Shown here one piece after another: positions 6,681 to 33,819 of a stretch of 64,000 nucleotides of DNA. The position numbers and the translations under genes are program-made. The notes below the pieces were generated by a model. It saw only the letters and a list, made by a program, of their open reading frames with translations, ran no database searches and was not told where the DNA came from. Location of the stretch: contig NZ_JAUSYD010000001.1 of assembly GCF_030816615.1 (NCBI RefSeq), positions 1,240,001 to 1,304,000 on the forward strand, given 5' to 3'. Origin of the DNA: Streptomyces sp. B1I3. GTDB lineage: Bacteria; Actinomycetota; Actinomycetes; Streptomycetales; Streptomycetaceae. Position 1 is the first letter of the stretch. Each line of letters begins with the position of its first letter.

Positions 6681-7023
6681 GCGGTGCTCCCCACGGCAGG
6701 CGGGCGACACGGCTCGGTGCCCGGCCCCCTGCGATCCAGTATGCGGGGGGAGCCGCTACGCCGGGCGGGCGGCTCCGCTGCAGGTCGCGGGCATGCCCCG
6801 GGGCGGGCCGCGGGTGGCCGTCCGGATGCTCCGCGTCGGTCGACGTCGTACACGGCCGCCGGTGTGCCCCGGTGCGCGGGCCGTTGTCGACCGGCGGCCC
6901 GATCCGGGACCGCGCGCCCCCGCCGCACGGTCGCCCACCGACGACGAGCACTTACACCGAAGTGGTGAGACAGCAATACTGTTGCACCTGTCGATGCCCG
7001 TCCGACGACAAGGAGCAGCAGAC
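6681..7023. other. Divergent intergenic region, MpaB-like gene / MerR regulator
   Basis: A gap of 343 bases. The right third carries the MerR promoter and dyad (described separately) and AAGGAG at about 7009 for the MerR start. In the left part I see only GC-rich sequence without a gene or hairpin that I can support. Confidence 0.6.
6952..6988 (+). promoter_or_regulatory. MerR-type promoter with 19-bp spacer and 25-bp dyad
   Basis: TTACAC (6952-6957) and TACTGT (6977-6982) are separated by 19 bases, the long spacer typical of MerR-controlled promoters. A 25-bp dyad, GGTG-N2-ACAG-N5-CTGT-N2-CACC (6964-6988), covers the right half of the spacer and the -10 box. The spacing suggests autoregulation by the gene that starts at 7024. 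A related dyad lies at 13646-13670. Confidence 0.6.
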
Positions 7024-7755
7024 ATGGCCACCGGGGCCGAGGAACCGACGCTCACCGTCGACGAGCTGGCGGCGCGCGCCGGGGTGACCGTGCGCACGGT
7101 GCGCTTCTACAGCACCCGCGGGCTGCTGCCCCCGCCGGTGATCGGGCCGCGCCGCGTCGGGCGCTACGGGCCGGACCATCTTTCTCGTCTCGCGCTGATC
7201 GAGGAGCTGCAGCGCCAGGGCATGACGCTCGCCGCGATCGAGCGGTATCTGGAGCAGCTGCCGCCCGATCTGAGCGCGCACGACCTGGCGATCCACCGCG
7301 CCCTCGTGGCGTCCTGGGCGCCGGACTCCTCCGAGGCCATGGGGCAGGCGGAGCTGGAACGGCGCGCCGGGCGGGCGCTCACCGGGCCGGACGTGGACCG
7401 GCTGGCGGCCATGGGCGTGCTGCAGCGCGCGGAGGCCGCCGAGGTCACCTACCGGGTGGATGTGGGGCTGCTGCGGCTCGGGGTGGAGCTCCTGGACGTG
7501 CCGATCGCGCACGAGACGATCCTGGCGGCGCGGACGGTCCTGCTGGAGCACACCCGGTCGGCCGCGCACGAACTGACCCGGTTGTTCCGCGACGAGGTGT
7601 GGAATCCCTACCGGGAGCGGGAGGCGGACCCGGAGCACGTGAAGGCGATGAAGTCGCTGTCGGCCCATATGCAGCCGATGGTGCTCCAGGCGCTGGTGAC
7701 GGCCTTCCAGCGGTCGCTGAAGGAGGAACTGCGGGCCGCGTTCACCGCGGAGTGA
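7024..7755 (+). CDS. MerR family transcriptional regulator
   Basis: A 243-aa DNA-binding regulator. The winged helix-turn-helix of the MerR family is at the N-terminus (LTVDELAARAGVTVRTVRFY, about residues 10-29, then STRGLLPPP and GRYGPDHLSRLALIEELQRQG). The C-terminal ~150 residues form an effector domain without the cysteines of metal sensors. The ATG at 7024 follows AAGGAG. The gene is convergent with the FadB-like gene. Its promoter contains a dyad that recurs in front of the CoA-transferase gene at 13632, so a role in fatty-acid degradation control is inferred. The ligand could be an acyl-CoA, but nothing in the sequence proves that. Confidence 0.9.
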   Translation: MATGAEEPTLTVDELAARAGVTVRTVRFYSTRGLLPPPVIGPRRVGRYGPDHLSRLALIEELQRQGMTLAAIERYLEQLPPDLSAHDLAIHRALVASWAPDSSEAMGQAELERRAGRALTGPDVDRLAAMGVLQRAEAAEVTYRVDVGLLRLGVELLDVPIAHETILAARTVLLEHTRSAAHELTRLFRDEVWNPYREREADPEHVKAMKSLSAHMQPMVLQALVTAFQRSLKEELRAAFTAE

Positions 7756-7788
7756 ACCGCGTGGCCACGGCCCGCAGGGACGCCCCGG

Positions 7789-9963: not shown

Positions 9964-10001
9964 TGCTTGTCTTCTCCGTAAGCAGGGGTGGCCGGGGACG
10001 G

Positions 10002-11216
10002 TCAGAGACGCTCGATGACGGTGGCGACGCCCATGCCGCCGCCGACGCAGAGGGTGGCGAGGCCGTAACGCAGGTCCCGGCGCTCCAGTTCGTCGACGAG
10101 CGTGCCGAGGATCATGGCGCCGGTCGCCCCGAGGGGGTGTCCGAGCGCGATGGCGCCGCCGTTGACGTTGACCTTGTCGAGGGAGAGGCCCATGTCCCTC
10201 ACGAAGCGCAGGACCACTCCAGCGAACGCCTCGTTGATCTCCACGAGGTCGATGTCGTCGATGGTGAGTCCCGCCTTGGCCAGCGCTTTGCGGGTCGCGG
10301 GCGCCGGGCCGGTGAGCATGATGGTCGGCTCGGAGCCCGAGACGGCGGCGGACACGATCCGGGCGCGCGGGGTGAGGCCGTAGCGTTCGCCCACTTCCTC
10401 GGAGCCGATCGCGACGAGGGCGGCGCCGTCCACGATGCCCGAGGAGTTGCCCGCGTGGTGGACGTGGTCGATCTTCTCGACCCAATGGTACTTCTGCAGG
10501 GCCACGGCGTCGAAGCCGCCCATCTCGCCGATCGTGGCGAACGACGGCTTGAGGGAGGCCAGGGAGTCGGCGGTGGTGCCGGGCCGCATGTGCTCGTCGC
10601 GGTCGAGGACGAGGAGGCCGTTGCGGTCCCTGACGGGGACGACGGAGCGGGCGAAGCGCTCCTCCTTCCACGCCGTCGCGGCACGCTCCTGGGACAGGGC
10701 GGCGTACTCGTCGACGTCCCGGCGTGAGAAGCCCTCGACGGTGGCGATGAGGTCGGCGCCGATGCCCTGCGGGGCGAAGCCGGTCTCGAAGCTGGTCATC
10801 GGGTCCATGGCCCAGGCGCCGCCGTCGGAGCCCATCGGAACGCGGGACATCGACTCGACGCCGCCGGCCAGGACGAGGTCCTCCCAGCCGGAACGGACCT
10901 TCGCGGCGGCCAGGTTGACGGCTTCCAGGCCGGAGGCACAGAAGCGGTTCTCCTGCACGCCGGCGACGGAGTCCGGGAGTCCGGCCGCGACGGCGGCGAT
11001 ACGGGCGATGTCGGAACCCTGGTCGCCGAGCGGGCTGACCACGCCGAGGACGATGTCGTCGATGGCGGCCGGGTCGAGATCCGGGAAGCGGGCCCGGATC
11101 TCGTGGATGAGGCCGACGACGAGGTCGATCGGCTTGGTGCCGTGCAGGGCTCCGTCGGCCTTGCCACGGCCGCGCGGGGTGCGGATCGCGTCGTAGAGGA
11201 ACGCTTCGGTACTCAA
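10002..11216 (-). CDS. Acetyl-CoA C-acyltransferase (thiolase, FadA-like)
   Basis: A 404-aa thiolase that cleaves 3-ketoacyl-CoA with CoA, the last step of beta-oxidation. The nucleophilic cysteine lies in [12 protein letters not shown] (Cys93). The second and third active-site blocks are [17 protein letters not shown] and CVGGGMGVA near the C-terminus. The start is TTG at 11216, preceded by GAAAGG with suitable spacing. It sits between the acyl-CoA dehydrogenase (40 bases upstream) and the FadB-like gene (38 bases downstream), implying one transcript. The length and the order of motifs are complete, with no sign of damage. Confidence 0.95.
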
Positions 11217-11256
11217 GACAACTGCCTTTCGGGGTGGGGGCGGCGCAACAGGGAGG

Positions 11257-12399
11257 TCAGGCGAGCAGCGAGCGGCCGATGATCTCTTTCATGATCTCGG
11301 TCGTGCCGCCGTAGATGGTCTGGATACGGCCGTCGGTGAAGGCTTTGGCAACCCGGTACTCCGTCATGTATCCGTATCCGCCGTGCAGTTGGAGACAGCG
11401 GTCCGCGACGCGCTTCTGCAGTTCGGTGGCCCACCACTTGGCCATCGAGGCGTGCACGGCGTCGAGTGTGCCGTCCGAGTGATCAACGATGCACCGGTCG
11501 AGGAAGGTTCGGGTGACGGCACATTCGGTTGCCATCTCGGCGATCTCGAACCGGATGTGCTGGAGCGCGGAGAGCGGGCGGCCGAAGGCTTCGCGCTCCT
11601 TGACGTACCGGGTGGTGATCTCCAGGAGGTGCTCGGCGGCGGCGATGCCCGCGACCGCTATGCCGATCCGTTCCTGGGCCAGGTTGGTCATGAGGTGGAC
11701 GAAGGCGCCGTCGCGCTCCCCCAGGAGGTTCTCCTTGGGCACCCGTACGTCGTCGAAGAACAGCTCGGCGGTGTCCTGTGACTTCTGGCCGATCTTGTCG
11801 AGGTTGCGGCCCCGCTCGAAACCCTCGGCGCCGCGCTCGACGACCAGCAGTGACAGACCCTTCGCACCGCCCTGCGGTGCGGTCCTCGCGACGACGATCA
11901 CCAGGTCGGCGAGGATGCCGTTGGAGATGAAGGTCTTCGAGCCGTTGAGGAGCCAGTGGTCGCCCTTGTCCTCGGCGGTGGTGCGGATGCCCTGGAGGTC
12001 CGAGCCCGCGCCGGGCTCGGTCATGGCGATGGCCGTGATCGTCCTCCCGCTGCAGAAGCCGGGCAGCCAGCGCCGCTTCTGCTCCTCGGTGCCCAGGCCC
12101 GTGAGGTAGGGGCCGATGATGTCGTTGTGCAGACCGAGCGCGAGCCCGGAGGCGCCGGCCCGGGTGAACTCCTCGGCCAGGACTGCGCTGTATCGGAAGT
12201 CGTCGTTGCCTCCGCCGCCGTACTCCTCGGGCACGGCGAGGCCGAGCAGCCCCTGCTGTCCGGCCGCGAGCCAGGCCCCGCGCGAGACGATGCCGTCCTG
12301 CTCCCACTGCTCGTAGTGCGGGAGGACCTCCTTGGCCAGGAAGGTACGGACGGTCTCGCGGAACGCGTCGTGTTCCTCGGTGAAGATCTGCCGCTGCAC
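11257..12399 (-). CDS. Acyl-CoA dehydrogenase
   Basis: A 380-aa flavoprotein that introduces the alpha-beta double bond into acyl-CoA, the first step of beta-oxidation. Landmarks are the FAD/substrate segment [14 protein letters not shown], the beta-sheet [13 protein letters not shown], and the C-terminal [18 protein letters not shown], which carries the glutamate at the position usual for the catalytic base. The GTG start at 12399 is preceded by AGGAGG six bases away and gives the typical length; the frame extends upstream to 12453 without a good start. It shares its strand with the thiolase and FadB-like genes. Chain-length preference is not visible. Confidence 0.95.
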
Positions 12400-12495
12400 T
12401 TCAGGCCTCCTGGGGTCGGATCCGGACGGTGGAGCCGGCGCTGCGCACGGCACGGCCGCGGCCCGCCGCGCGGGGCGGTGGCGAGGTGGGTTCCA

Positions 12496-13632
12496 TCAGC
12501 CGGTGGCCCCCTTCCTCCACAGGCCCGGCACGCCCCAGTCCGCGGCGACGGACTCGGCGTCCGCCCCGGGCAGGGCGGGGCCGGTGCGTACGGAGACCGG
12601 GGTGGCCGAGAATCTGGGCGCGGGGGCCGGCTGGGTGAGGCCGCCGTGCTCCACGTAGGTGGCACGGGCGGCGAGGTGCGGGTGGTGCGGCGCCTCGCGG
12701 AGCGAGAGGACGGGCGCCACACAGGCGTCCGTCCCTTCGAAGACCTCGGTCCACTCGGCGCGGGTACGTTCCGCGAACCGCTCGGCGACGACGGTGCGCA
12801 GCTCCTCCCAGCGACCGGGGTCGTTGCGGTCCGGGGCGCGGTCCCGGATGCCGAGCAGCGCGGCGAACTCCTCGTAGAAGGGCTCCTCGAGCGCTCCGAC
12901 CGCCATGTACCGGCCGTCGGAGGTCTCGTAGGTGCCGTAGAAGGGGCAACCGCCGTCCAGGAGGTTGGAGCCGCGCCGGTCCTGCCAGGCGCCGGCCGCC
13001 ATCATGCCGTGGATCATCGTCGCGAGGTGGGCGGCGCCGTCGACGATGGCCGCGTCCACCACCTGGCCGGCGCCACCGGGCGTACGGGCGTGCTGCAGGG
13101 CGGCGAGCACGCCGACGACGAGGTAGAGGGAGCCGCCCGCGTAGTCGCCGACCAGATTGGCAGGGACGGTGGGCGGCTCGTCGGCCTTGCCGATCATGGA
13201 GAGCGTGCCGGTGAGGGCGATGTACGAGATGTCGTGGCCCGCCCGCGGGGCCAGTGGCCCTTCCTGGCCCCAACCGGTCATCCGCCCGTAGACGAGGCGC
13301 GGATTGAGGTCCAGACAGACGTCCGGGCCCACGCCGAGACGTTCGGCGACACCGGGGCGGTTGCCCTCGATCAGGACGTCGGCGCGTTCGACGAGGTCCA
13401 GCACCTGCCGGACGCCGTCCTCGGCCTTGAGGTCGACGAGGACCGATCGCTTGTTGCGGTTGGTGAGGTCGCGGGCGGGATCGATGCCGAGCGGGGCGCC
13501 GCCCGGACGGTCGACGCGCACCACGTCCGCACCGAGATCCGCGAGGAGCATCGCGGCGAACGGCCCGGGGCCGATGCCCGCCAGTTCGACGACGCGCACC
13601 CCGGCCAGCGGGCCCTGCCCTGTCGTTGCCAC
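12496..13632 (-). CDS. Family III CoA-transferase / alpha-methylacyl-CoA racemase-like protein (CaiB/BaiF)
   Basis: A 378-aa cytoplasmic enzyme. The N-terminal LAGVRVVELAGIGPGPFAAM and GADVVRVDRPGG are typical of the CaiB/BaiF family, as is KRSVLVDLKAEDG. The aspartate in RAGHDISYIALTG matches the catalytic position shared by family III transferases and alpha-methylacyl-CoA racemase. The segment GHDISYIALTG resembles the racemase branch more, which would fit breakdown of 2-methyl-branched acids, common in streptomycete membranes. It starts with GTG at 13632. It leads the beta-oxidation block, with 96 bases to the next gene, and has a 25-bp dyad just upstream. Confidence 0.88.
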   Translation of the reverse strand: MATTGQGPLAGVRVVELAGIGPGPFAAMLLADLGADVVRVDRPGGAPLGIDPARDLTNRNKRSVLVDLKAEDGVRQVLDLVERADVLIEGNRPGVAERLGVGPDVCLDLNPRLVYGRMTGWGQEGPLAPRAGHDISYIALTGTLSMIGKADEPPTVPANLVGDYAGGSLYLVVGVLAALQHARTPGGAGQVVDAAIVDGAAHLATMIHGMMAAGAWQDRRGSNLLDGGCPFYGTYETSDGRYMAVGALEEPFYEEFAALLGIRDRAPDRNDPGRWEELRTVVAERFAERTRAEWTEVFEGTDACVAPVLSLREAPHHPHLAARATYVEHGGLTQPAPAPRFSATPVSVRTGPALPGADAESVAADWGVPGLWRKGATG

Positions 13633-13645
13633 CGAGCCCCCAAAA

Positions 13646-13670
13646 GGTATGACACAAATGATGTAACACC
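13646..13670. promoter_or_regulatory. 25-bp dyad in the divergent CoA-transferase / reductase promoter
   Basis: GGT-N3-ACA-N7-TGT-N3-ACC, 14 bases upstream of the CoA-transferase GTG. It matches the dyad of the MerR gene promoter (6964-6988) at 17 of 25 positions by eye, including both outer and inner arms. It is a candidate operator for that regulator. Confidence 0.5.
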
Positions 13671-13837
13671 GACGATGCTAAGAACGCACCACGCTCCGCA
13701 CAACCCTTTTGGCCGAGCAAGCGCTTAGCCCTTCCCCCGGATCCTCTCGCACCGGAGCCCGCCCGCGCGTACGACGCCACGAACCGCTCCGCTACCCTCT
13801 GCGTGCCACATCGGCGCCACTTCCCTCGGAGGCACTC

Positions 13838-15028
13838 GTGAACAGGCAGAACGGGGCGGAACGCCCTTACGACGTCGTCCTTTTCGGTGCCACCGGCTTT
13901 GTGGGGAAGCTCACCGCCGCCTACCTGGCCGAGCACGCACCGGACGGCTGCCGCTGGGCCCTGGCGGGCCGCAGCCGGAGCAAGCTGGAGCAGCTGCGCG
14001 GGCACCTCACCACGATCGACCCGCGCTGCGCGGACCTGCCGCTGCTGACGGCGGACGCGGGCGACCCCGGCGCGCTGCGCGAGCTCGCCGAGTCCGCCCA
14101 CGTGGTGGCCTCGACGGTCGGTCCGTACGTCTGGTACGGCGAGAAGCTCGTCGCCGCCTGCGCGGAGGCGGGCACCGACTACGCCGACCTCACCGGCGAG
14201 GCGGAGTTCGTCGACCGGATGTACCTGGCCCACGACGCGCGCGCCCGGGAGACGGGGGCCCGCCTCGTGCACGCCTGCGGCTTCGACTCCGTGCCGCACG
14301 ACCTCGGCGTCCTCTTCACCGTCCAGCAGCTCCCGCAGGACGTGCCGCTCACCGTGGACGGGTTCGTCCGCAGCAACGCCGTCTTCTCGGGCGGTACGTT
14401 CGCCTCCGCGCTCACCGCGATGGCCCGCGGCCCGCAGACGCTGCGGGCCGCGAGGGAACGCCGGCTGCACGAGCCCCGTCTCGTCGGCCGCCGGGTCCGG
14501 GTCCCGCAGGGCTCACCCCACTTCAGCAGGCGGACGGGTACCTGGGCGCTGCCCCTGCCGACCCTGGACCCGCGGATCGTGGAACGTTCGGCACGCGCGC
14601 TGGAGCGCTACGGCCCCGATTTCCGCTACCGGCACTTCGCCTCGGTGAAGCACCTGCCGGTGGCCCTCGGTGGTACGGCGGCCTTGGGGGCGCTGGCCGG
14701 GGCAGCCCAGGTCCCCGCCGTGCGCGACTGGCTGACGAGCCGCTACGAGCCGGGGTCCGGCCCCGACGCGCAGCGCAGGAGGCGCAGCTGGTTCACGGTC
14801 CGCTTCGTCGGGGAGGGCGGCGGGCGGCGGGTCTACACCGAGGTGTCCGGCGGCGACCCCGGCTACGACGAGACGGCGAAGATGCTCGCCGAGTCGGCGC
14901 TCGCCCTCGCGCTGGACGAGCTGCCGGCCACGTCGGGCCAGGTGACGACCGCCGCGGCGATGGGCGACGCGCTGCTGGGCCGGCTGCGGGCGGCCGGGCT
15001 GGGCTTCCGGGTCGCGGCAGTGCGCTGA
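13838..15028 (+). CDS. Saccharopine dehydrogenase-like / trans-acting enoyl reductase family protein
   Basis: A 396-aa NAD(P)-dependent oxidoreductase. The N-terminal Rossmann motif is DVVLFGATGFVGKLTAAYLAEH; the family signatures TVGPYVWYGEKLVAAC and ACGFDSVPHDLG follow. GTG at 13838 is chosen because GGAGG lies six bases before it; the frame also runs upstream from 13709 without such a site. Related mycobacterial proteins act as trans enoyl reductases in lipid synthesis, but most relatives are uncharacterised. It is divergent from the beta-oxidation block, so a link to acyl metabolism is plausible but only inferred. Confidence 0.85.
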   Translation: MNRQNGAERPYDVVLFGATGFVGKLTAAYLAEHAPDGCRWALAGRSRSKLEQLRGHLTTIDPRCADLPLLTADAGDPGALRELAESAHVVASTVGPYVWYGEKLVAACAEAGTDYADLTGEAEFVDRMYLAHDARARETGARLVHACGFDSVPHDLGVLFTVQQLPQDVPLTVDGFVRSNAVFSGGTFASALTAMARGPQTLRAARERRLHEPRLVGRRVRVPQGSPHFSRRTGTWALPLPTLDPRIVERSARALERYGPDFRYRHFASVKHLPVALGGTAALGALAGAAQVPAVRDWLTSRYEPGSGPDAQRRRRSWFTVRFVGEGGGRRVYTEVSGGDPGYDETAKMLAESALALALDELPATSGQVTTAAAMGDALLGRLRAAGLGFRVAAVR

Positions 15029-23528: not shown

Positions 23529-25721
23529 ATGACACAGGCCGCACCCACGGGCGCCGGCGCGCCCACGGGAAGAGCCATCCGGGAACTGCTCGACGACGCC
23601 AGGCGGCTCGCCGACGCGGCCGGCGCGGTCCTCGCCGACCACGCCCACGCCGTCGAGGCCGTGCACAGCACGCTCGCTCCACTCCTTGACTCCCTGGTCG
23701 GCCGGGAGCTGGCCGGGATCCCCGCCGGCCGGCTGGGCGACGTCACCGAGGGCCGGCTCCTGCTCGGCGCCCTCGAGCAGGCCGGTTACACGACGGTCGG
23801 CCGGGTCCACGCCGCCGGGCGCTACGAGCTCCGCCAGATCCCCGGCGTCGGGGCGCGGACGGCCGATCAGGCCCTGGCCGCCGCACGCCAGATCGCGCAC
23901 GCGGTCCGGGACACCGTGGCCGTACGGCTGGACGTGCACGAGGCGGACGCGGCGGAAGGCGCCACGACCGCGCTGGTCGTCGCCCTGCACCGGCTCGCCG
24001 GGGCGGGCGACGACGCGCGCCGGGCCGCCACCGCCGCGCGGCGTCTCGCCGCGGAGCTGGAACCGCTGCTTGCCGCGGCCGTACCGGCGGCGAGCCGGCT
24101 GCGCCTGCTGCTCGCGGGGCGCGCGGCCCGTGCCCGGGCACGGGAGGCCGTCGCCTCCGTGCGGGCCGTGCTGGACGAGGCGGTGGCATGTGAACTGCCG
24201 TTGCTGTTCGGGCAGGTGTCGGTGGACCTGCTGCGGTCTCCGGCGTCGCCCGCCGAGGCCTGGGTGGACTTCGAGCTGCGGTCGGCGGAGTACTACGGTC
24301 TGCTCGCCGAGCTGTCCGGCACCGGACCCGGCCGGGACGCCGCCGAAGGTTTCCTGCCCGCCGGCATCGCGGACCGGGTACGGGGGCTGCGGCTCGACGA
24401 CACGCGTCTGCGGGTCTCCCTGCGCGGCTACCAGTCCTTCGGCGCGCGCTTCGCACTCGCACAGAAGCGGGTGATCCTGGGAGACGAGATGGGGCTCGGC
24501 AAGACCGTGCAGGCCATCGCGGCACTGGCCCACCTCGCCGCACACGGCGAGTCGCACTTCCTGGTGGTCTGCCCGGCCAGCGTGCTGATCAACTGGAGGC
24601 GGGAGATCCGGGCCCGCTCCACGCTGCGGGCCGTGCCGGTGCACGGCGCCGAGCGGAGGGACGCGTTCGAGGAGTGGCGCGCGACCGGCGGGGTGGCCGT
24701 GGCCACCTTCGACGCGCTGCACGGCCTGCCGGACGGCCCGGGCTGCGGAATCCGGCCCGGCATGGTCGTCGTGGACGAGGCCCACTTCGTGAAGAACCCC
24801 GCGACCCGGCGGGCCCGTGCCGTGGCCGGCTGGACCGGCCACACCGAACGGGTGCTGTTCCTGACCGGCACCCCGATGGAGAACCGGGTCGAGGAGTTCC
24901 GGAGCCTGGTGCGTCAGCTGCGCCCGGAACTGGCCCCGGCCGTCACCGCCACGCACGGTGTCGCCGGTTCGCACGCCTTCCGCAGAGCCGTCGCCCCGGC
25001 CTATCTCCGTCGCAACCAGGACGACGTCCTCGCCGAACTCCCGGCGCTGGTACCGGCCGACGAGTGGCAGGAGTTCTCCGCCGCCGACCTCGAGGCGTAC
25101 CGCGAGGCGGTCCACTCAGGGCACTTCATGCGGATGCGCCGTGCCGCGTACGCCCGCCCCGCGACGTCGGCGAAGCTGCACCGGCTGCGCGAGCTGGTCG
25201 CGGAGGCCGAGGCCGGCGGGCACAAGGTCGTGGTCTTCTCCTACTTCCGCGACGTGCTGCAGACCGTCCGCGACGCCCTGGGACACCAGGTGTTCGGTCC
25301 GGTCTCCGGGAGCGTTCCGGCGCCCCGCCGGCAGAAACTGGTCGACGCGTTCGGTGCGGCGGACGGACACGCCGTGCTGCTGGGCCAGACACAGGCCGGC
25401 GGTGTCGGGCTCAACATCCAGGCGGCCTCCGTGGTCATCCTGTGCGAGCCGCAGATCAAGCCCACGATGGAACGTCAGGCCGTCGCCAGGGTCCACCGCA
25501 TGGGGCAGATACGGCCGGTCCGCGTCCACCGGCTGCTCGCGGCGGACAGTGTCGACCAGCGGATGCTGGACATCCTGGCGCGCAAGGACCGTCTCTTCGA
25601 CGCGTACGCCCGGCGCAGCGACGTCGCCGAGGCGACGCCGGACGCGGTCGACGTGTCGGACGGGGCGCTGGCCCGGCGCATCGTCGAGGAGGAACAGCGG
25701 CGGCTGGCGGCCGAGGTCTGA
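23529..25721 (+). CDS. SNF2-family DEAD/DEAH-like helicase/translocase with HhH-containing N-terminus
   Basis: A 730-aa ATP-dependent DNA translocase. The first ~300 residues include a helix-hairpin-helix-like segment (YELRQIPGVGARTADQALAAA) and alanine-rich helices. Then come the SNF2 motor motifs: motif I GDEMGLGKTVQAI (about 317-329), motif II VVDEAH (about 414), LTGTPMENR (motif III), and the C-terminal lobe with GGVGLNIQAA and ARVHRMGQIRPVRVHRL (motif VI, about 650). ATG at 23529 follows AGAAGGA. It stands alone. Roles in repair or transcription-coupled remodelling are typical, but the partner is unknown. Confidence 0.9.
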   Translation: MTQAAPTGAGAPTGRAIRELLDDARRLADAAGAVLADHAHAVEAVHSTLAPLLDSLVGRELAGIPAGRLGDVTEGRLLLGALEQAGYTTVGRVHAAGRYELRQIPGVGARTADQALAAARQIAHAVRDTVAVRLDVHEADAAEGATTALVVALHRLAGAGDDARRAATAARRLAAELEPLLAAAVPAASRLRLLLAGRAARARAREAVASVRAVLDEAVACELPLLFGQVSVDLLRSPASPAEAWVDFELRSAEYYGLLAELSGTGPGRDAAEGFLPAGIADRVRGLRLDDTRLRVSLRGYQSFGARFALAQKRVILGDEMGLGKTVQAIAALAHLAAHGESHFLVVCPASVLINWRREIRARSTLRAVPVHGAERRDAFEEWRATGGVAVATFDALHGLPDGPGCGIRPGMVVVDEAHFVKNPATRRARAVAGWTGHTERVLFLTGTPMENRVEEFRSLVRQLRPELAPAVTATHGVAGSHAFRRAVAPAYLRRNQDDVLAELPALVPADEWQEFSAADLEAYREAVHSGHFMRMRRAAYARPATSAKLHRLRELVAEAEAGGHKVVVFSYFRDVLQTVRDALGHQVFGPVSGSVPAPRRQKLVDAFGAADGHAVLLGQTQAGGVGLNIQAASVVILCEPQIKPTMERQAVARVHRMGQIRPVRVHRLLAADSVDQRMLDILARKDRLFDAYARRSDVAEATPDAVDVSDGALARRIVEEEQRRLAAEV

Positions 25722-25743
25722 GCGGCCGCCTCGAACCCGGCCC

Positions 25744-26730
25744 TCAGTGCGTGTGGGTGCTCGCCGCGCCCTCCACATGATGCGGCTCGTACCCGGGGAC
25801 CGTGCCGTCGGGCTTGGCCACCAGCAGCAGTCCGGCCATGCCCATGTCGGAGTGGCTCTGGACGTGGCAGTGGTACATCCAGGCGCCCGCTCCCACGTGT
25901 TCGCCCGCGATGATCTGGAAGCCGAAGGAGTCGGCGGGGCCGCAGATCTTCGTGTCGACGACGCGGCTGGGATCCTCGGGGCCGGTGAGCATCCCGGTCC
26001 TGTTGTCCGCCCAGCGGTGCCCGTGGATGTGGAAGGTGTGGTAGTACTCGCCGTGCGTGATCATGACGACCTCGACCCGGTCGCCCACGGTGGCCTCGAA
26101 GTCGGGACTCTCGTCGGCGGCCTTGTTGTTGATCGTCATGTCGTTGAAGACGATGGTGATCGTACGGTCCGGCAGGACGTCCCCCTTGCGCCGGACGACG
26201 ACGGGTCCGTACAGCCCCTTGCGGATGCCACCGGTGCCGTGATCCGTGCCGACGACGTGGTCGTGGTAGTGCCAGTAGCCGGCGCTGCCCGCCTGCCAGG
26301 TTCCGTCCTTGCGCCGGCCGGGGGCGTGCGTGCGCCAGGTGTACGTACGGGTGCCGCCCGGTTCGACGTGGCTCCGGTTCATGCGCGTGCCGTCGCTCGC
26401 TATGTCGTAGTCGACGCCGTGGACGTGGAGGCTGGCGTCGACGTCCGTGGTGTTCTCGAATTCGATGTGCAGGGTGTCGCCCTCGATGATCTCGATGAGC
26501 GGGCCGGGGATCGACGCCTTGCCCTTCTCCAGGCCGTACCCCATCTGACCGTCCGCCAGCTTCTCGGCGTACAGCTTGAGGTGCCGGACCTGGCCACCCG
26601 CCGGGGCGGTCCTGGCAGGGTTCTCCGCCGGGGTGGCCTGGACGGTGCCGAGCGACATCGATGTCACGCCGGTCGCCGCCGCCACCCCTCCACCCACGAG
26701 CATCCGCCGGTTGAAGGTCCTTCGGTCCAT
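25744..26730 (-). CDS. Two-domain small laccase (multicopper oxidase), Tat-exported
   Basis: A 328-aa extracellular multicopper oxidase of the SLAC type, which oxidises phenols and other reductants and reduces oxygen to water. The N-terminus has a twin-arginine motif (NRRM, in [10 protein letters not shown]) and a hydrophobic core, so it is exported folded with copper. All copper ligands are present: H102, H104, H154/H156/H158, H231, H234, H236, H287, C288, H289, H293 and M298, with Tyr108 in place. The numbering equals that of the S. coelicolor small laccase as I remember it (SCO6712). It is divergent from the ThuA-PQQ gene. The C-terminus is His-rich ([11 protein letters not shown]). Confidence 0.96.
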
Positions 26731-26981
26731 GTCGAACTCCCCAGTGCGAGACGGAAACTGACGCGCTGATCCCCGGAACGGCCCACACCGTAGCCGTGGA
26801 TCCCTCGTTTATCCACACTCAGGACAAAGTTCGTTCGAATGCTGCCGTAGCTATTGGCGAGCCATGAAAAGGGGTCTAGCTTCGTGCGCTGTCGCAGTGA
26901 CCACGAAGGCGCAGTGGCAGTGCATGGAGAGAAGTGCAGTGATCCAGGAAGTGAAGTGACCAAAGAGGGGTGGGTGACCAC
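26731..26981. promoter_or_regulatory. Divergent promoter region, laccase / ThuA-PQQ gene
   Basis: A 251-base shared region. On the plus strand TTGGCG (26854-26859) and TAGCTT (26877-26882) are 17 bases apart, a reasonable housekeeping promoter. An inverted repeat CTTCGTG-N15-CACGAAG (26880-26908) begins within the -10 box, as an operator would. AGAGGGG precedes the plus-strand start. Confidence 0.45.
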
Positions 26982-29480
26982 ATGCAGCGCACACCACATC
27001 ACAGGTCCAGATCGCGTCGCGGGCTCGCGGCGGCGGTGGCGGTCGGCGCTCTGACCGCGTCCCTGCTGGGCGGCAACGCCGCCAGCGCCAGACCGTATCC
27101 GGATCCGGGGCTCGCGGAACGGATGGCGACAACGTTGTCCCTTCCCTCACCGCCGGGCGGGGCCGACGTCAAGGTGCTGGTCTTCCACGCGTCGGCGGGC
27201 GAGGAGTCGCCGACCGTCGACGCGGGGATCGCCGCAGTCGAGAAGATCGGGCTCAGCGGTCCGGCGGCCGGGCGCTTCAAGACCGTGGCCACCGACGACG
27301 CCTCGGTCTTCACCAACGGCAAGCAGCTCGGCAAGTACAACGCCGTCGTCTTCCTGACCGGTGGCGGCGACGTCCTCACCCCGGAGCAGGAGGCGGGTCT
27401 GGAGGCGTACATGGAGGCGGGCGGAGGCTTCCTCGGCATCCATGACGCGGCCCGTACGGAACCGTACTCCGACTGGTTCACCGGCCTGGTCGGTGCCCGC
27501 CCCGCAGCGGGCAGTCCCACGGACGTCCAGCGCGCCACCGTGGAGATCGGCGACCGGCAGCACCCGGCGACCAGGAACCTCCCGCTGGAGTGGAAGCGCC
27601 CGGACACCTGGCTGAACTGGAAGGACAATCCGTCCGGCGACGTGCACACCGTGGCCCGGGTCCGCGAGATCACCTACTCCCCCGGCGAGAGTGCCAACGG
27701 CTGGGACCACCCGGTCTCCTGGTGCCGTGACTACGACGGCGGCCGGTCCTTCTACACGGCCATGGGCGGTACGGTCAGCAGCTTCGCCGAGACCGACTTC
27801 CGGGACCACCTGCGCGGTGCGCTGGCCTGGACGAGCCGCATCTCGCAGGCCGACTGCAAGGCCACCATCGACTCCAACTACACGGCGGAGCGCCTCACCC
27901 GGCCCAACCAGCCCGGGCAGAACGACCAGATCGGTGAGCCGCACGGCCTGGTGACCGCGAAGGACGGGCGGGTCTTCTACGTCGGGCGCGGCGGCACGGA
28001 CAGCAGCGTGCCGGTGGTCACCGACTGGAAGGACCCGAACGTCGGCAAGGGCGAGGGCGAGATCCACGTCTACGACCCGGGGACGAAGAAGGTCACCCTC
28101 GCGGGCAAGCTCAGCGTCTTCGGCAACAAGGGCGGCGGCGACGAGCTGGTCAAGGTGGAGGAGGGACTGCTCGGCATCGAGCTGGACCCGGACTTCACCA
28201 CCAACGGCTGGGTCTACCTGCACTACACCCCGCACGCGAAGATCGATCGCGACAAGCAGACGGCCGTGCGCCAGGTCTCCCGTTTCACCTTCGACCGCGC
28301 CACGAACAAGCTGGACCTGGCATCCGAGAAGGTGCTCCTGCACTGGCCGGTCCAGATCCACAGCTGCTGCCACGCGGGCGGCGGCATGGCCTGGGACTCG
28401 AAGGAGAACCTCTACATCGCGACCGGGGACAACAACTCCTCCGGTTTCAGCGACGGTTACTCCGGCAACAACCCCCAGCCCAACTACAAGGGCCTGTCCT
28501 TCGCCGATGCCCGCCGCACCGCGGGCAACACCAACAACCTCAACGGGAAGATCCTGCGGATCCACCCCGAGGACGACGGCACGTACACCCTGCCGGAGGG
28601 GAACCTCTTCACCGGCGAGGAGTCGGACGAGGGGGGCGGCAAGACACGCGGCGAGATCTACGTGATGGGTGTGCGCAATCCCGCCCGCATCTCCGTCGAC
28701 AAGTCGACCGACACGCTGTACGCCGGCTGGGTCGGCCCCGACGCGGGCGCTCCGAGCACGACCTGGGGTCCCGCCAAGTACGACACGTTCGCGGCGATCA
28801 CGAAGGCCGGCAACCACGGCTGGCCCTACTGCATGGGCAACAAGCAGCCCTACCGCGACCGCAATCTGCCGGACCCGTCCAAGCCGCTGGACTGGTACGA
28901 CTGCGACGCGCCGAAGAACGAGTCGCCCAACAACGACGGACTGGTCAACCTGCCGCCGGTGACCGGCAACACGATCTGGTACTCGCCGCAGGGCGGTGGT
29001 GTGGACTACCCGCGCGACGCCGAGGGCATCCCCAGCTACAAGGTCGAGGACCAGAAGGAGCTCCTGCCCTGGCTCAAGGGCGGCGGCCAGGCCACGATGA
29101 ACGGCCCTGTCTACCGGTACGACGCCGCGAGCGACAGCACGGCCAAGTGGCCCTCGTACTGGGACGGCAAGTGGTTCGTGGGTGACTTCTACGACGACAC
29201 CCAGCCGCGCCACGCCGTGCTCACCGACCCGAAGACGGTCGGCAAGGGCGGGCTCCCCACCCACGCCGAGTCCCTCAAGAAGATCATTCCGGTCGGCGCG
29301 AACGGCATCCGCAACCTCATGGACTGGAAGTTCGCCCCTGACGGTTCCCTCTACGTCCTGGACTACGGGCGCGGCTTCTTCACCTCCGACTCCAAGTCCG
29401 CGCTCTGGCGTGTGACGTACAAGGGCGGCGGTCCGACCCCGGCCGCCGCCGATCTGGCCAGGAAGGCGGCAGCGCAGTGA
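26982..29480 (+). CDS. Secreted ThuA domain + PQQ-type sugar dehydrogenase fusion
   Basis: An 832-aa exported protein. Residues 1-37 form a signal peptide ending in the Ala-Ser-Ala region (SLLGGNAASA). Residues about 63-286 are a ThuA-like domain (VKVLVFHAS, VVFLTGGGDVLTPEQEAGL, GGGFLGIHDAA, FYTAMGG). Residues about 295-832 form a beta-propeller of the soluble glucose/sorbosone dehydrogenase type (PHGLVTAKDGRVFYVGRGG, GLLGIELDPDF, GGGMAWDSKENLYIATGDN, YGRGFF). This would oxidise a sugar outside the cell with PQQ or a similar cofactor. ATG at 26982 is used; GTG codons at 26970 and 26974 lie in the ribosome-binding stretch. It overlaps the next gene by 4 bases (GTGA). Confidence 0.9.
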   Translation: MQRTPHHRSRSRRGLAAAVAVGALTASLLGGNAASARPYPDPGLAERMATTLSLPSPPGGADVKVLVFHASAGEESPTVDAGIAAVEKIGLSGPAAGRFKTVATDDASVFTNGKQLGKYNAVVFLTGGGDVLTPEQEAGLEAYMEAGGGFLGIHDAARTEPYSDWFTGLVGARPAAGSPTDVQRATVEIGDRQHPATRNLPLEWKRPDTWLNWKDNPSGDVHTVARVREITYSPGESANGWDHPVSWCRDYDGGRSFYTAMGGTVSSFAETDFRDHLRGALAWTSRISQADCKATIDSNYTAERLTRPNQPGQNDQIGEPHGLVTAKDGRVFYVGRGGTDSSVPVVTDWKDPNVGKGEGEIHVYDPGTKKVTLAGKLSVFGNKGGGDELVKVEEGLLGIELDPDFTTNGWVYLHYTPHAKIDRDKQTAVRQVSRFTFDRATNKLDLASEKVLLHWPVQIHSCCHAGGGMAWDSKENLYIATGDNNSSGFSDGYSGNNPQPNYKGLSFADARRTAGNTNNLNGKILRIHPEDDGTYTLPEGNLFTGEESDEGGGKTRGEIYVMGVRNPARISVDKSTDTLYAGWVGPDAGAPSTTWGPAKYDTFAAITKAGNHGWPYCMGNKQPYRDRNLPDPSKPLDWYDCDAPKNESPNNDGLVNLPPVTGNTIWYSPQGGGVDYPRDAEGIPSYKVEDQKELLPWLKGGGQATMNGPVYRYDAASDSTAKWPSYWDGKWFVGDFYDDTQPRHAVLTDPKTVGKGGLPTHAESLKKIIPVGANGIRNLMDWKFAPDGSLYVLDYGRGFFTSDSKSALWRVTYKGGGPTPAAADLARKAAAQ

Positions 29481-31711
29481 GACAGCGATCGCTCCTTACG
29501 CGACAGCGGTACCGGCCCGTCAGGGTGTGGCTGGCCCTGCTCGGTTCGTTCCTGATGGTCCTGGGGCTGACGTCGACGGCCGCGTACGGACGTGAGGACG
29601 AACAGGCGGGCGCCGCGGCCGGCCAGGTCCTCGACTGGACCGCCGGCGACCCCATCGACCACTATCTGTCGGCACCGAAGACGGCCGTGGCCGGCGCCGC
29701 GACCATCGTCTTCGAGAACAGCGCCGCCACGGGCAACACGACCGGGATGCCGCACACGCTGACCTTCAGCGTCTCGGACGTGGAATTCAACGACGATGTC
29801 CAGGTGAACATCCTGGCCAACCCCAGCGACAGCGAGGGCGGCAGGCACAGCGTCGAGGTCACCCTCACCCCCGGCCGGTACTTCTACCACTGCACCATTC
29901 CCGGCCACGGGTCCATGCAGGGCATCCTCACCGTGACCGAGGGCGGCGGCGAGGACACCACCGCACCCGAGACCTCGGCGACGGTGGACGGGGACAAGGA
30001 CGCCGACGGCGCGTACATCGGCCAGGCCACCGTCACCGTGGCGGCGACGGACGCCGGTTCGGGCGTCGGCACCGTCGAGTACGCCGTCGGAACCGACGGC
30101 GCCTGGCAGCCGTACACCACGCCCGTCGTGGTCGACCAGGTCGGGACGCACACCGTCCGCTACCGCGCCACCGACAGGTCCGGCAACGTCGCGGCCGAGA
30201 AGGCGGTCGACTTCACCGTCGCCGCACCGCCCACGGACGACGAGACCGCGCCGGAGACCTCGGCGACCGTCTCGGGCGAGAAGGACGACGCGGGTGCCTA
30301 CCTGGGGATGGCCACGGTGACGGTGACCGCGTCGGACACCGGGTCCGGCGTCAACACCATCGAGTACGCCATCGGTGCGGACGGTGCCTGGCAGGCGTAC
30401 ACCGCCCCCGTCATGGTGCACGAGGTCGGGACGCACACGGTCCGCTACCGCGCCACCGACAGGTCCGGCAACGTCGCGGCCGAGAAGGCGGTCGACTTCA
30501 CCGTCACCGCACCGCCGTCGCAGGACAGGACACCGCCGGTGACCGCCGCGGCGGTGACGGGTGACAAGAACTCGGACGGCGCGTTCATCACCAGCGCCAC
30601 GGTCGCGGTCACCGCCACCGATGCCGACTCGGGTGTGGACAAGGTCGAGTACTCCCTCGACGGCGGCCCGTACCTGGCCTACTCCTCCCCCGTCATCGTG
30701 GACCGCGTCGGTCGCCACACCTTCGCCCACCGGGCGACGGACAAGGCGGGCAACACCTCGGAGGCGAAGCAGTCCTCGTTCACCATCGCCGAGAGCGGCG
30801 GTGTGCCCGCACCCAACTGCCCCGAGTACGACGAGCGGCTCACCGTCATCGTCGGTACGGTCGACAGCGGCGTCCCCAACCGGATCACGGGCAATCGCTG
30901 CACGATCAACGAGCTGATCGAGGACGAGAAGGACTGGTCCTCCCACGCCCTGTTCCTCAAGCACGTCGACAAGGTCATCGACAAGCTGCTGGCCGCAGGG
31001 GTGATCGACACCCGTGAGCACAAGAAGATCTACAAGGCGGCCAAGCAGTCCGGCATCGGCAGGCCGGGCCAGGACGAGGGTTACCGCAAGCTCTTCGACG
31101 GCACGGCCGGGTCCCTCGCCGCGTGGGAACAGGTGGGCGGCGGGAAGTTCGGGCTGAACGAGGAGGAGGGCTCGATCACCAGCTCGACCACCGTCGACGG
31201 CATGGGCATGCTGTGGTTCCCGTCCCGGCAGTACGGGGACTTCTCGCTGAAGCTGCAGTGGCGGGACGACGCACCCGGCACGGGCAACGCCAACGGCGGG
31301 GTCTTCGTCCGCTTCCCGAACGTCCACGACCACCCGGAGGAGTCACGTCCCGAGTGGGTCGCCATCAAGTACGGCCATGAGATCCAGGTCAACGACCGGC
31401 CCGACGGCGACATGTACAAGACCGGCTCGATCTACGGCTTCGACCGGGTCGGTCTCGGCGGCGCCGGGGTCACACCCAAGGGCACCTGGAACGACTACGA
31501 GATCCGGGTGGTGGACCAGCACTACTCGGTCTACCGCAACGGTGTCCTGATCAACGAGTTCGACAACAACGGCGGTCAGCTCTTCCAGCCGCCGCGGGGC
31601 GACGACCCGGGCACCGACGGCCGTCGTTACGCCTCCGGCTACATCGGGCTCCAGGTCCACAGCACCACGGACGTGATCTCCTACCGCGACATCCGCATCC
31701 AGGAGTTGTAG
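29477..31711 (+). CDS. Secreted cupredoxin + three OmpL47-type repeats + DUF1080 protein
   Basis: A 744-aa exported protein. A signal peptide covers about residues 1-37. A cupredoxin domain (about 45-157) keeps a full type-1 copper site: H93, C139, H144, M147 (HCTIPGHGSM). Three repeats of about 90 aa with the ATDxSGN signature span 160-249, 256-345 and 352-438. A short helical segment (445-530) leads to a C-terminal DUF1080/3-keto-disaccharide hydrolase-like domain (535-744; YGDFSLKLQWRDDAPGTGNANGG). GTG at 29477 overlaps the upstream stop, so translation is coupled to the ThuA-PQQ gene. Electron acceptance plus sugar binding or cleavage are inferred. Confidence 0.88.
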   Translation: MRQRSLLTRQRYRPVRVWLALLGSFLMVLGLTSTAAYGREDEQAGAAAGQVLDWTAGDPIDHYLSAPKTAVAGAATIVFENSAATGNTTGMPHTLTFSVSDVEFNDDVQVNILANPSDSEGGRHSVEVTLTPGRYFYHCTIPGHGSMQGILTVTEGGGEDTTAPETSATVDGDKDADGAYIGQATVTVAATDAGSGVGTVEYAVGTDGAWQPYTTPVVVDQVGTHTVRYRATDRSGNVAAEKAVDFTVAAPPTDDETAPETSATVSGEKDDAGAYLGMATVTVTASDTGSGVNTIEYAIGADGAWQAYTAPVMVHEVGTHTVRYRATDRSGNVAAEKAVDFTVTAPPSQDRTPPVTAAAVTGDKNSDGAFITSATVAVTATDADSGVDKVEYSLDGGPYLAYSSPVIVDRVGRHTFAHRATDKAGNTSEAKQSSFTIAESGGVPAPNCPEYDERLTVIVGTVDSGVPNRITGNRCTINELIEDEKDWSSHALFLKHVDKVIDKLLAAGVIDTREHKKIYKAAKQSGIGRPGQDEGYRKLFDGTAGSLAAWEQVGGGKFGLNEEEGSITSSTTVDGMGMLWFPSRQYGDFSLKLQWRDDAPGTGNANGGVFVRFPNVHDHPEESRPEWVAIKYGHEIQVNDRPDGDMYKTGSIYGFDRVGLGGAGVTPKGTWNDYEIRVVDQHYSVYRNGVLINEFDNNGGQLFQPPRGDDPGTDGRRYASGYIGLQVHSTTDVISYRDIRIQEL
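30140..30517 (+). repeat. Near-identical internal DNA repeat, ~93 bp, 285 bp apart
   Basis: Bases 30140-30232 and 30425-30517 differ at only about two positions. They encode the same 30-residue stretch of two successive OmpL47-type repeats (ATDRSGNVAAEKAVDFTV). The third repeat is diverged. This indicates recent duplication or gene conversion. Confidence 0.85.
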
Positions 31712-31723
31712 GGCGAGGCACAC

Positions 31724-32803
31724 TCAGGCGGCCGCGGCCGCGTGCTCCGGCACGCGGCCGCGGCCTCCCGGGTGCCGGTGGCGCCACACCCAGAAGACGG
31801 TGCACGAGAGCAGTGACCAGGCCGCCAGCACCAGGAACGGGAACGCGTACTGATGGCCCTGGTAGTAGACCGCCGTGTGCTGTGCGTTGACCGAAGCACC
31901 CGGTGGCAGCCAGCGGCCGATGTGCCCGAGCACCGACGGCAGCAGGGGCCAGGACACCGCGCCACCCGATGACGGGTTGCCCAGCAGCACCATCAGCCCC
32001 CAGGTGGGGAGCATCGCCCAGCGCCCCATGATGGTGTTGAACATGGTGAAGACCATGCCCGACGCGAACATCGTGAGCGCCAGGATCAGCCAGGACTCGA
32101 CGAAGGGCAGATCCAGCGCCCCGAGCCACCAGTCCACCACCGCCGCGATCGCGAAGCCGCCGAGCAGGGCGTAGGCGACGGTGAAGAGGATGCGTTCGAG
32201 GGGATCGAGCGCTCGCGCGTGCACGCTGAGCTGGATGGCCCCCACGAAGCCGATGATGACGGCGGCGAGCGAGATGTAGAAAAGTGCCAGTCCGCGCGGG
32301 TCACCTTCCTGGAGTGGCTTGACGTCCGTGATCGTGACAGGGACCCCGGTGGCCTTCGCGACCTTCGCGCCGGTCTCGGCGAGCAGTTGGGCGACCGTGG
32401 CCCCGCCGGCTCCGGCGATGTCCATGGCCACCCCGCGCTCACCCGGCCGCAGGGTCACGAAGACCTTCTGCTCCTCCATGGCCTGTCGCGCCCCGGCCCG
32501 GGTCGCGTACCGATGCAGGTGGAGGGAGGCGTCGAGGGCCTCATCCATCCCCACGACGAACTTCTTCCCTCCCCGTGCCTCGGCACCGTCGACCACCGCG
32601 GCCGGGATGCTGCGCGGTGTCGGGTCGGCCATCGTGTACGTGTACGAACCGGCGAAGAGGCCGGCCGCGGCGGCGAGGATGAAGAGCAGCACGACCGCCG
32701 GGACGTACGGCGACTGCTTGTACGACGCCCACCTGTCGGCCCGGGTCGGGGGCCTGCCGTGAGCTCCGTGCGCGGGCTGCTCCGCCCCCTCGCCGGCGCT
32801 CAC
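31724..32803 (-). CDS. Six-TM membrane protein, ABC-2/YhgE-type
   Basis: A 359-aa membrane protein. One N-terminal transmembrane helix (YVPAVVLLFILAAAAGLFAG) is followed by an extracytoplasmic domain of about 150 residues and five more helices. This is the plan of YhgE/Pip and ABC-2-type export proteins. No ATPase partner is adjacent. The GTG start at 32803 overlaps the stop of the LigD-type polymerase gene by 4 bases, so the two are co-translated. The C-terminal Arg/Ala tail (EHAAAAA) is encoded by the arm of a long GC hairpin. The function is unknown; the coupling to a DNA polymerase gene may be fortuitous. Confidence 0.8.
   Translation of the reverse strand: MSAGEGAEQPAHGAHGRPPTRADRWASYKQSPYVPAVVLLFILAAAAGLFAGSYTYTMADPTPRSIPAAVVDGAEARGGKKFVVGMDEALDASLHLHRYATRAGARQAMEEQKVFVTLRPGERGVAMDIAGAGGATVAQLLAETGAKVAKATGVPVTITDVKPLQEGDPRGLALFYISLAAVIIGFVGAIQLSVHARALDPLERILFTVAYALLGGFAIAAVVDWWLGALDLPFVESWLILALTMFASGMVFTMFNTIMGRWAMLPTWGLMVLLGNPSSGGAVSWPLLPSVLGHIGRWLPPGASVNAQHTAVYYQGHQYAFPFLVLAAWSLLSCTVFWVWRHRHPGGRGRVPEHAAAAA
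31730..31765. terminator. 15-bp hairpin terminator inside the 3' end of the convergent gene
   Basis: Arms at 31730-31744 and 31751-31765 pair perfectly around a 6-base loop. The hairpin starts 19 bases after the DUF1080 gene stop but lies within the last codons of the convergent membrane gene. It can act for both. Confidence 0.65.
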
Positions 32804-33819
32804 GCTTCACCGTCGTCGTGCCGGGCGCGGCTGGGCTGCACCCGCTTCGGCTCCCCGGGCATCTTGGGGTACTCCGGCGGGTAGGGCAGGTCTCCGAGCC
32901 TGTGCTCCTGCTCGTCGCGCGTGGCCAGCTCCAGCAGCTGGTCGAGCCGGAAGGCGTGGTCGTCCATGTCGGCGTGCAGGTCTCCCACCTCGGCGTACCG
33001 CTCGGGCATCGTCCGGATGTCGAAGTCGCGGGGTTCCGCGTCGTCGATCTCCTCCCAGCGCAGGGGCGCGGAGACCGGGGCGTGCGGGAACGGGCGGACG
33101 GAGTAGGCGCAGGCGATGGTGCGGTCGCGGGCCGTCTGGTTGTAGTCCACGAAGATCCGCTCGCCGCGTTCCTCCTTCCACCACGCGGTGGTCACCCGCT
33201 TCGGCATCCGGCGCTCGAGTTCCCGCCCCACCGCGATCGCGGCGCGGCGCACCTGGGTGAAGGTCCACTCGGGGACCAGGGGGACGAACACGTGGATGCC
33301 GCGCCCGCCCGAGGTCTTGGGCCAGCCGCGCAGCCCGTGGTCCTCCAGGACGGACCGCAGCTCGTGGGCCGCCCGCACGGCGTCGGCGTAGTCGGTGCCG
33401 GGCTGCGGGTCGAGGTCGATGCGCAGCTCGTCGGGGTGATCGGTGTCGGGCCTGCGCACCGGCCACGGGTGGAAGGTCAGCGTGCCGAGATTGGCCGCCC
33501 AGAGAACGGCGCCGAGCTCGGTGGGGCACATCTCGTCGGCGTGCCGGCCGCTGGGGAATTCGATACGCGCGGTGGGTGTCCAGTCGGGCAGGTTCTTCGG
33601 CGCCCGCTTCTGGTAGAAGAACTCTCCCCCGACGCCGTCGACGAAGCGCTGGAGAGTGGTGGGGCGCTCGCGCAGGGCGCGCAGGATCCCGGGCCCGACG
33701 GCCAGGAAGTACTCGGCCACGTCTCTCTTGGTGTAACCCTTCTCTGGGAAGTACACCTTGTCCGGGTTGGACAGCCGTACGGGCCGCCCGTCCGCGTCCA
33801 GCTCGATCGCTGCTCCCAT
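32800..33819 (-). CDS. LigD-type NHEJ DNA polymerase (AEP/primase family)
   Basis: A 339-aa stand-alone polymerase domain like that of LigD, which fills gaps during non-homologous end joining. Visible motifs are SNPDKVYFPEKGYTKRD, the region RIDLDPQPGTDY containing the catalytic aspartates, KTSGGRGIHVFVPL, and VDYNQTARDRTIACAYSVRP. The C-terminus is short and basic. ATG at 33819 lacks a clear Shine-Dalgarno, and the transcript may be leaderless or nearly so. It is divergent from the ligase gene across a 76-base gap bearing a palindrome, and it overlaps the downstream membrane gene by 4 bases. No ku gene is in the window. Confidence 0.92.
   Translation of the reverse strand: MGAAIELDADGRPVRLSNPDKVYFPEKGYTKRDVAEYFLAVGPGILRALRERPTTLQRFVDGVGGEFFYQKRAPKNLPDWTPTARIEFPSGRHADEMCPTELGAVLWAANLGTLTFHPWPVRRPDTDHPDELRIDLDPQPGTDYADAVRAAHELRSVLEDHGLRGWPKTSGGRGIHVFVPLVPEWTFTQVRRAAIAVGRELERRMPKRVTTAWWKEERGERIFVDYNQTARDRTIACAYSVRPFPHAPVSAPLRWEEIDDAEPRDFDIRTMPERYAEVGDLHADMDDHAFRLDQLLELATRDEQEHRLGDLPYPPEYPKMPGEPKRVQPSRARHDDGEA

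Follow-up and report, generated by a model that had tools for sequence, protein, structure and literature searches.

A strictly conserved Streptomyces gene unit of small laccase, ThuA-GSDH protein and cupredoxin-DUF1080 protein, tentatively read as a secreted copper-dependent module for oxidative glycoside cleavage

The natural role of the bacterial laccases is still debated, several roles having been proposed (PMC5675413; this and the other papers cited by PMC number are drawn on in excerpt), and, of the two-domain small laccases of Streptomyces (SLAC, EpoA and SilA), the excerpts of papers on SLAC and SilA (PMC5675413 and PMC3918160 among them) treat the laccase alone and leave its neighbours unmentioned. 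Here we describe the surroundings of such a laccase in Streptomyces sp. B1I3, within a window (the whole stretch of DNA analysed, 64,000 nucleotides; 1240001-1304000 of one 7.52-Mb contig) in which the SLAC gene stands divergent to two further genes, called A and B throughout, that add a secreted ThuA-GSDH protein and a secreted cupredoxin-DUF1080 protein to the picture. Both proteins have described relatives. The GSDH-type propeller of A is of the same family as the pyrroloquinoline quinone (PQQ) aldose/glucose dehydrogenases (the soluble glucose dehydrogenase sGDH, 1c9u; YliI, 2g8s; 3a9g, 2ism and 7cdy), with which it shares a catalytic His and an Arg-Asn pair, while the DUF1080 domain of B is of the same family as the 3-keto-glycoside eliminase/hydratases (BT2157, 3osd; 8tda, 8v31, 8rr2 and 9fbe), whose fold it matches. 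Of the DUF1080 relatives, BT2157 hydrolyses 3-ketotrehalose, a Caulobacter protein has been proposed to do the same with 3'-ketolactose, and another is an endo-xanthanase/lichenase (PMC9007349). The pairing of a sugar oxidoreductase with DUF1080 is likewise found in the LacABC-DUF1080 lactose pathway of Caulobacter, from which the trio differs in that its presumed oxidoreductase is a GSDH propeller (and not LacABC), its DUF1080 domain is fused to a cupredoxin and a laccase is attached. The locus is laid out as follows:

25744..26730, minus strand: SLAC, two-domain small laccase of 328 residues
26731..26981, no strand: divergent region shared by SLAC and A (81 intergenic regions aligned)
26982..29480, plus strand: gene A, secreted ThuA-GSDH protein of 832 residues, ATG start
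27171..27833, plus strand: ThuA domain of A (Pfam PF06283)
27912..29430, plus strand: GSDH-type propeller of A (Pfam PF07995)
29477..31711, plus strand: gene B, secreted cupredoxin - OmpL47 x3 - DUF1080 protein of 744 residues
29618..29941, plus strand: cupredoxin domain of B (ligands H93, C139, H144, M147)
29954..30790, plus strand: three OmpL47-type / Ig-like repeats of B (NCBIfam NF047446)
31079..31702, plus strand: DUF1080 (3-keto-disaccharide hydrolase) domain of B (Pfam PF06439)

Within Streptomyces, SLAC, A and B are a strictly conserved unit. In a survey of 150 genomes of the genus (the window's own included) searched with each protein (orthologue cut-offs: E <= 1e-130 for A, E <= 1e-90 for B and E <= 1e-60 for SLAC), A was recovered from 92 genomes, B from the same 92 and SLAC from 95; all three genes are present in 91 of the 150 and none in 54. 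B directly follows A in 91/92 A-bearing genomes, and SLAC adjoins A divergently in 91/92 (median gap 234 bases, range 179-428), both exceptions to adjacency being contig ends (in G073 the contig stops 314 bases past A, and in G120 B is found close to the end of a different contig). A set of 80 loci gave B in 80/80 and SLAC in 79/80, and the loci with the closest A proteins are all labelled Streptomyces (one of them [Kitasatospora]), two being S. griseus. In the 67 of these 80 loci that extend at least 3.5 kb upstream and at least 5 kb downstream, SLAC and B are each present in 67/67, the two flanking LigD/ligase genes in 57/67 and 56/67, the downstream membrane-protein gene in 36/67 and the SNF2-type neighbour in 27/67. 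Furthermore, on an rpoB tree (1.8 kb; 100 of the 150 genomes, comprising all 58 without A and 42 of the 92 with it) parsimony counts 21 changes of A presence (32 with shuffled labels), of which at least 13 are forced by strongly supported branches, and the trio has therefore been acquired or lost en bloc on many occasions. Since physical linkage alone eases joint loss, this co-inheritance demonstrates cohesion and not a shared reaction; that the three proteins act in one process we nonetheless consider very probable. In one genome (G048) a fragment of SLAC directly adjoins the end of B and A is gone (locus L232, G048:C83, around 5291-6067), a relic that reads as a deletion scar of the unit. 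Neither the trio nor the haloarchaeal clusters presented below were found described in the literature, within a search limited to openly licensed papers.

A preliminary description of the locus, drawn from the DNA letters, had named its parts, and most of that inventory was borne out. The 4-bp coupling claimed for A and B is present in the sequence (GTGA, 29477-29480, where the stop of A overlaps the start of B), a GTG at 26970 being a possible alternative start for A. The divergent two-domain laccase is a full-length match (residues 1-323, E = 1.5e-177) to S. coelicolor SLAC (3cg8), and in the translation of the window's laccase we read by eye two copper-ligand motifs and a twin-arginine-type signal. 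In A, Pfam finds ThuA at residues 63-283 (E 1.3e-59, 202.4 bits against a cut-off of 33.4) and GSDH at residues 358-618 (E 1.1e-24; both counted from 26985), and the GSDH family profile matches 1c9u at 6.7e-21; the AlphaFold model of A (38 sequences) had a mean predicted local distance difference test score (pLDDT) of 48.9 and was not used. The claimed architecture of B was upheld by the OmpL47-type domain in three stretches (NF047446, 2.2e-79) and by 3keto-disac_hyd at residues 535-742 (Pfam E 8.6e-33, 114.4 bits against a gathering cut-off of 26.8). Scans of 25000-33000 with Rfam and of viral contigs with B returned no match.

The intact type-1 copper site that had been assigned to the cupredoxin of B also held, in that none of H93, C139, H144 and M147 varies among 36 aligned orthologues. 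Pfam cupredoxin models do not match the N-terminus of B, even at E <= 10, and a profile built from six B relatives does match solved proteins with a type-1 copper (auracyanin A 1.4e-5, plastocyanin 7.9e-4, auracyanin B 3.1e-3). The ligands are intact in 88/88 loci read (the 80-locus set and 8 others): a strict pattern matched 73/88 and a looser one 82/88, and the last six, read by eye, retain His, Cys, His and Met and differ in a neighbouring Pro. The AlphaFold model of B (mean pLDDT 70.4, predicted template modelling score 0.33) is usable in part, with pLDDT values of 77-91 in ten-residue blocks from residue 51 to 150 and strand-rich repeats in the OmpL47-type region. The DUF1080 profile of B matches 14 solved entries (3osd at 4.2e-7, 8rr2 at 5e-7, 8tda at 5.7e-7, 8v31 at 3.5e-6 and 9fbe at 4.4e-6 among them), and Foldseek, run with the whole model, returns the same entries (E of about 1e-8 to 6e-8, TM-score by target 0.50-0.56), the DUF1080 part of the model being partly confident.

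The functions brought together in the trio recur in other arrangements, both in this genome and in other phyla. In the same genome GSDH, ThuA and DUF1080 are found as one protein of 1262 residues with PKD and CBM6 domains, and also as a neighbouring pair (GSDH-PKD-CBM6-lectin and ThuA-DUF1080-lectin). These rearranged sets lie at loci L019 (7909-11697, minus strand) and L018 (9147-13819), and the former seems, from the translations, to be set among sugar-isomerase-like, oxidoreductase-like and ABC transporter genes. Among plasmid relatives of the GSDH protein, nine of the best twelve were scanned with Pfam, and five of the nine come with an electron carrier: that of S. fungicidicus, whose plasmid carries the same trio (its cupredoxin, missed by Pfam, is assigned by orthology with B), those of Haladaptatus, Halocatena and a second Natronococcus protein, in which GSDH is fused to a cupredoxin, and that of Runella, in which it is fused to cytochrome c. 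On the plasmid of Natronococcus CG52 DUF1080 and GSDH make up one protein, a xylose-isomerase-like TIM barrel is also joined to DUF1080, and the gene that follows encodes a multicopper oxidase with its own plastocyanin domain. The plasmid of Haladaptatus pallidirubidus holds, within 26 kb, genes for DUF1080, Gfo/Idh/MocA, sugar isomerases, a multicopper oxidase, GSDH-cupredoxin and ThuA-GSDH-cupredoxin proteins; at the Halocatena locus no multicopper oxidase is annotated within 6 kb. The Natronococcus and Haladaptatus clusters (together loci L245 and L246) place the same set of functions side by side as the trio, from which they differ by longer multicopper oxidases (556 and 662 residues), an ABC transporter, a sugar isomerase and, in Haladaptatus, the Gfo/Idh/MocA genes. 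From four lines (the paralogue sets, the carrier fusions, and the Natronococcus and Haladaptatus plasmids) we infer that A is a redox enzyme. At a further locus (L021, G000:C1:996000-1010000, 6701-9183) a gene for a lytic polysaccharide monooxygenase (LPMO10) is directly followed by a GSDH-CBM2 gene and then by a GH9-CBM gene; this GSDH, also without the Arg-x-Arg motif discussed below, is a possible electron donor for the monooxygenase.

On these grounds we put forward, tentatively and with a confidence that stops slightly short of an even balance for the mechanism as a whole, that SLAC, A and B would form one secreted copper-dependent module for the oxidative cleavage of glycosides, in which electrons would be relayed over copper to SLAC. 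In this scheme a glycoside would lose two electrons from one of its sugar hydroxyls (oxidation at C3 being suggested only by the DUF1080 partner) to the GSDH propeller of A, which would pass them singly to the type-1 copper of B, from which SLAC would accept them through its own type-1 copper, reducing O2 to water. The DUF1080 domain of B would then open the keto-glycoside by elimination and hydration, and ThuA, a family whose function is unsettled, would perhaps serve in keto-sugar handling. The cofactor of the propeller is probably not classically bound PQQ, and the presumed transfer of electrons to the cupredoxin draws indirect support from the gene fusions in other phyla. The most specific form of the proposal holds that SLAC would be the terminal oxidase of a soluble, all-copper extracellular chain, that its GSDH component (devoid of a classical PQQ site) would employ another cofactor or binding mode, that the chain would be coupled to keto-glycoside cleavage, and that an equivalent chain would exist on haloarchaeal plasmids; taken in full, this is possible but leans to the unlikely side.

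Several observations weigh against the proposed module. SLAC occurs without A in four of the 150 genomes (G116, G147, G048 and G058): it persists without A and B in one lineage, the sister genomes G116 and G147 (with flanks like those of the window), and in G058, likewise without A and B, a diverged SLAC sits in different surroundings; G144 carries a second, diverged copy; SLAC must consequently have a use of its own. Conversely, one locus (L086, S. sp. SM11) has A with no SLAC upstream and a shortened B. The conserved linkage of the three genes, on which the preliminary description had staked its idea, is near-total within Streptomyces and not general to the actinobacteria: outside the genus, a phylum sample of 296 genomes gave no co-occurrence of SLAC and A, with SLAC alone in 8 genomes and A alone in 3. 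No carrier domain is seen in the two rearranged GSDH-ThuA-DUF1080 sets of this genome, and four of the nine scanned plasmid relatives (Nonomuraea, Embleya NBC_00888, Paenibacillus and S. sp. NBC_00316) have no carrier visible to Pfam. Moreover, the PQQ ligand set of A is incomplete and the PQQ biosynthesis protein PqqE does not track A (see below), and the electron transfer, the substrate and the cofactor of the trio are all points that we infer. Finally, SLAC oxidises many phenols in vitro, including caffeic and ferulic acid, resveratrol and quercetin (PMC3918160), and a protein donor is thus unneeded to explain its activity.

This same breadth towards phenols accords with the alternative that survives best, according to which a phenolic or lignin-derived glycoside would be oxidised by A and cleaved by B extracellularly. 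The phenol set free would be the substrate of SLAC, which would polymerise or detoxify it, or else recycle it in the form of a quinone able to re-oxidise A, and would receive no electrons from B. We weigh it because C3 oxidation followed by elimination does free a phenolic aglycone, as with the phloretin released from a C3-oxidised glucoside by an eliminase of a fold other than DUF1080 (PMC10628242), and it is in line with the lower amount of lignin solubilised from straw by a silA laccase mutant (33 vs 113 mg/g of acid-precipitable polymeric lignin; PMC5675413). Nevertheless, it accounts neither for the type-1 copper domain that B carries, with its ligands intact in every one of the 88 loci read, nor for the plastocyanin domain fused to a haloarchaeal multicopper oxidase, and we regard it as unlikely.

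The preliminary description had itself taken A for a PQQ-type sugar dehydrogenase; in its classical form this view makes A an ordinary PQQ aldose dehydrogenase, working with PQQ that the cell produces or acquires from the soil. This view was confronted with an alignment of 14 GSDH sequences, comprising A itself, two paralogues and, from Actinomycetota, Bacillota, Bacteroidota and haloarchaea, eleven relatives (among them H5, one of the twelve best plasmid relatives in addition to the nine scanned with Pfam), in which we followed the sGDH residues that we take to hold PQQ or to act in catalysis (their numbering was checked on the printed alignment). The catalytic His (sGDH His144, in a CCH motif in A) and Arg228-Asn229 are kept in 14/14, as the view would have it, but Arg406-x-Arg408 is missing from 14/14, A included, and present in 5/5 solved relatives whose printed alignments reach that far (1c9u, 2g8s, 2ism, 3a9g and 7cdy). 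A has Tyr, Asn and Met at the Lys377, Arg406 and Arg408 positions; among the 14 sequences the Arg408 position is never basic, and the Arg406 position is Lys in three (Nonomuraea and two Embleya) and otherwise non-basic. The Lys377 position, basic in none of the 14, is a weak criterion, being basic in four of the five solved relatives and Ala in 7cdy. A shifted mode of PQQ binding is possible, given the Arg that A carries one place before the Arg406 position, the Lys at that position in the three sequences named and the Arg one place after Lys377 in 7/14 (A not among these). A vicinal Cys-Cys pair stands directly before the catalytic His in 11/14 sequences, a further departure from the solved PQQ dehydrogenases; in methanol dehydrogenases a vicinal disulfide lies beside PQQ.

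The distribution of PqqE lends this view no support, for it exceeds the cut-off in 33 of the 150 genus genomes, 19/92 with A vs 14/58 without (Fisher p = 0.69), and 73 of the 92 A-bearing genomes lack it. Such absence does not exclude the use of PQQ, since E. coli, the home of YliI and our control, gives no PqqE match over the cut-off either; hosts such as E. coli take up PQQ, and scavenged PQQ is possible in the genomes other than that of the window. In the window's genome itself pqqABCDE lie next to genes for a ThuA protein and a quinoprotein propeller, and PQQ is thus available in this strain. At that locus (L017, G000:C1:1962000-1981500, around 7343-14387) the pqqABCDE genes are preceded by a secreted ThuA-only protein and by the propeller, the C-terminal tail of which looks cupredoxin-like by eye and is without the Cys ligand. 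Of the claim that A fuses ThuA to a PQQ-type dehydrogenase, the fusion and the two Pfam families stand and the full PQQ ligand set does not. To judge from these residues, 'PQQ dehydrogenase' is for A a family-level label, its binding of a quinone (a point on which the preliminary description had made its scheme depend) looks doubtful, and the classical view becomes improbable.

The region between SLAC and A bears on another possibility, i.e. that the three genes are neighbours as copper proteins or copper-regulated genes (serving copper handling or oxidative protection at the cell surface) and share no reaction. Its core, at about 26807-26883, is near-invariant across 81 loci (CGTTTATCCACAC.CAGGACAAAGTTCGT ... 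CTATTGGCG ... AAAGAGGTCTAGCTTC), and a sigma-70 consensus scan of 26600-27050 gave no match. The reverse complement of primer SilA-F (PMC5675413) resembles this core by eye, so that the region upstream of silA in S. ipomoeae is probably the same. As SLAC is SCO6712 in S. coelicolor (PMC3918160), SCO6710 is probably B (on gene order and name) and SCO6711 probably A, and SCO6710 is listed as a glycosyl hydrolase putatively repressed by CsoR, its transcript being halved, not raised, in cultures from copper-loaded spores (PMC6414726). Copper control of this kind would favour a merely regulatory neighbourhood; however, no CsoR-type palindrome was found in the 81 intergenic regions with the pattern used, and A, which matches no copper-protein family, is yet never without B in the 150 genomes. 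As the recurrent GSDH/ThuA/DUF1080 combinations are also left unexplained, we hold this possibility to be improbable. That the GSDH propeller is a non-redox binding scaffold like human hedgehog-interacting protein (which is not a dehydrogenase, and which the family profile also matches, at 3.1e-9), the cupredoxin serving some other purpose, is very improbable in view of the catalytic His and Arg-Asn invariant in 14/14, the many further polar residues invariant among the GSDH relatives and the fusion of such relatives to redox carriers.

We return to the proposed secreted module and to what the locus may mean for the families of two of its proteins. The GSDH proteins of this subfamily are annotated as PQQ-dependent in the database records examined, and a subfamily so labelled may have been assigned the wrong cofactor. 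The SLAC-type bacterial laccases, in turn, have been heavily studied as catalysts, yet their natural function is contested, and the strict genetic linkage to two proteins presumed to oxidise and cleave sugars makes the role of SLAC experimentally testable.

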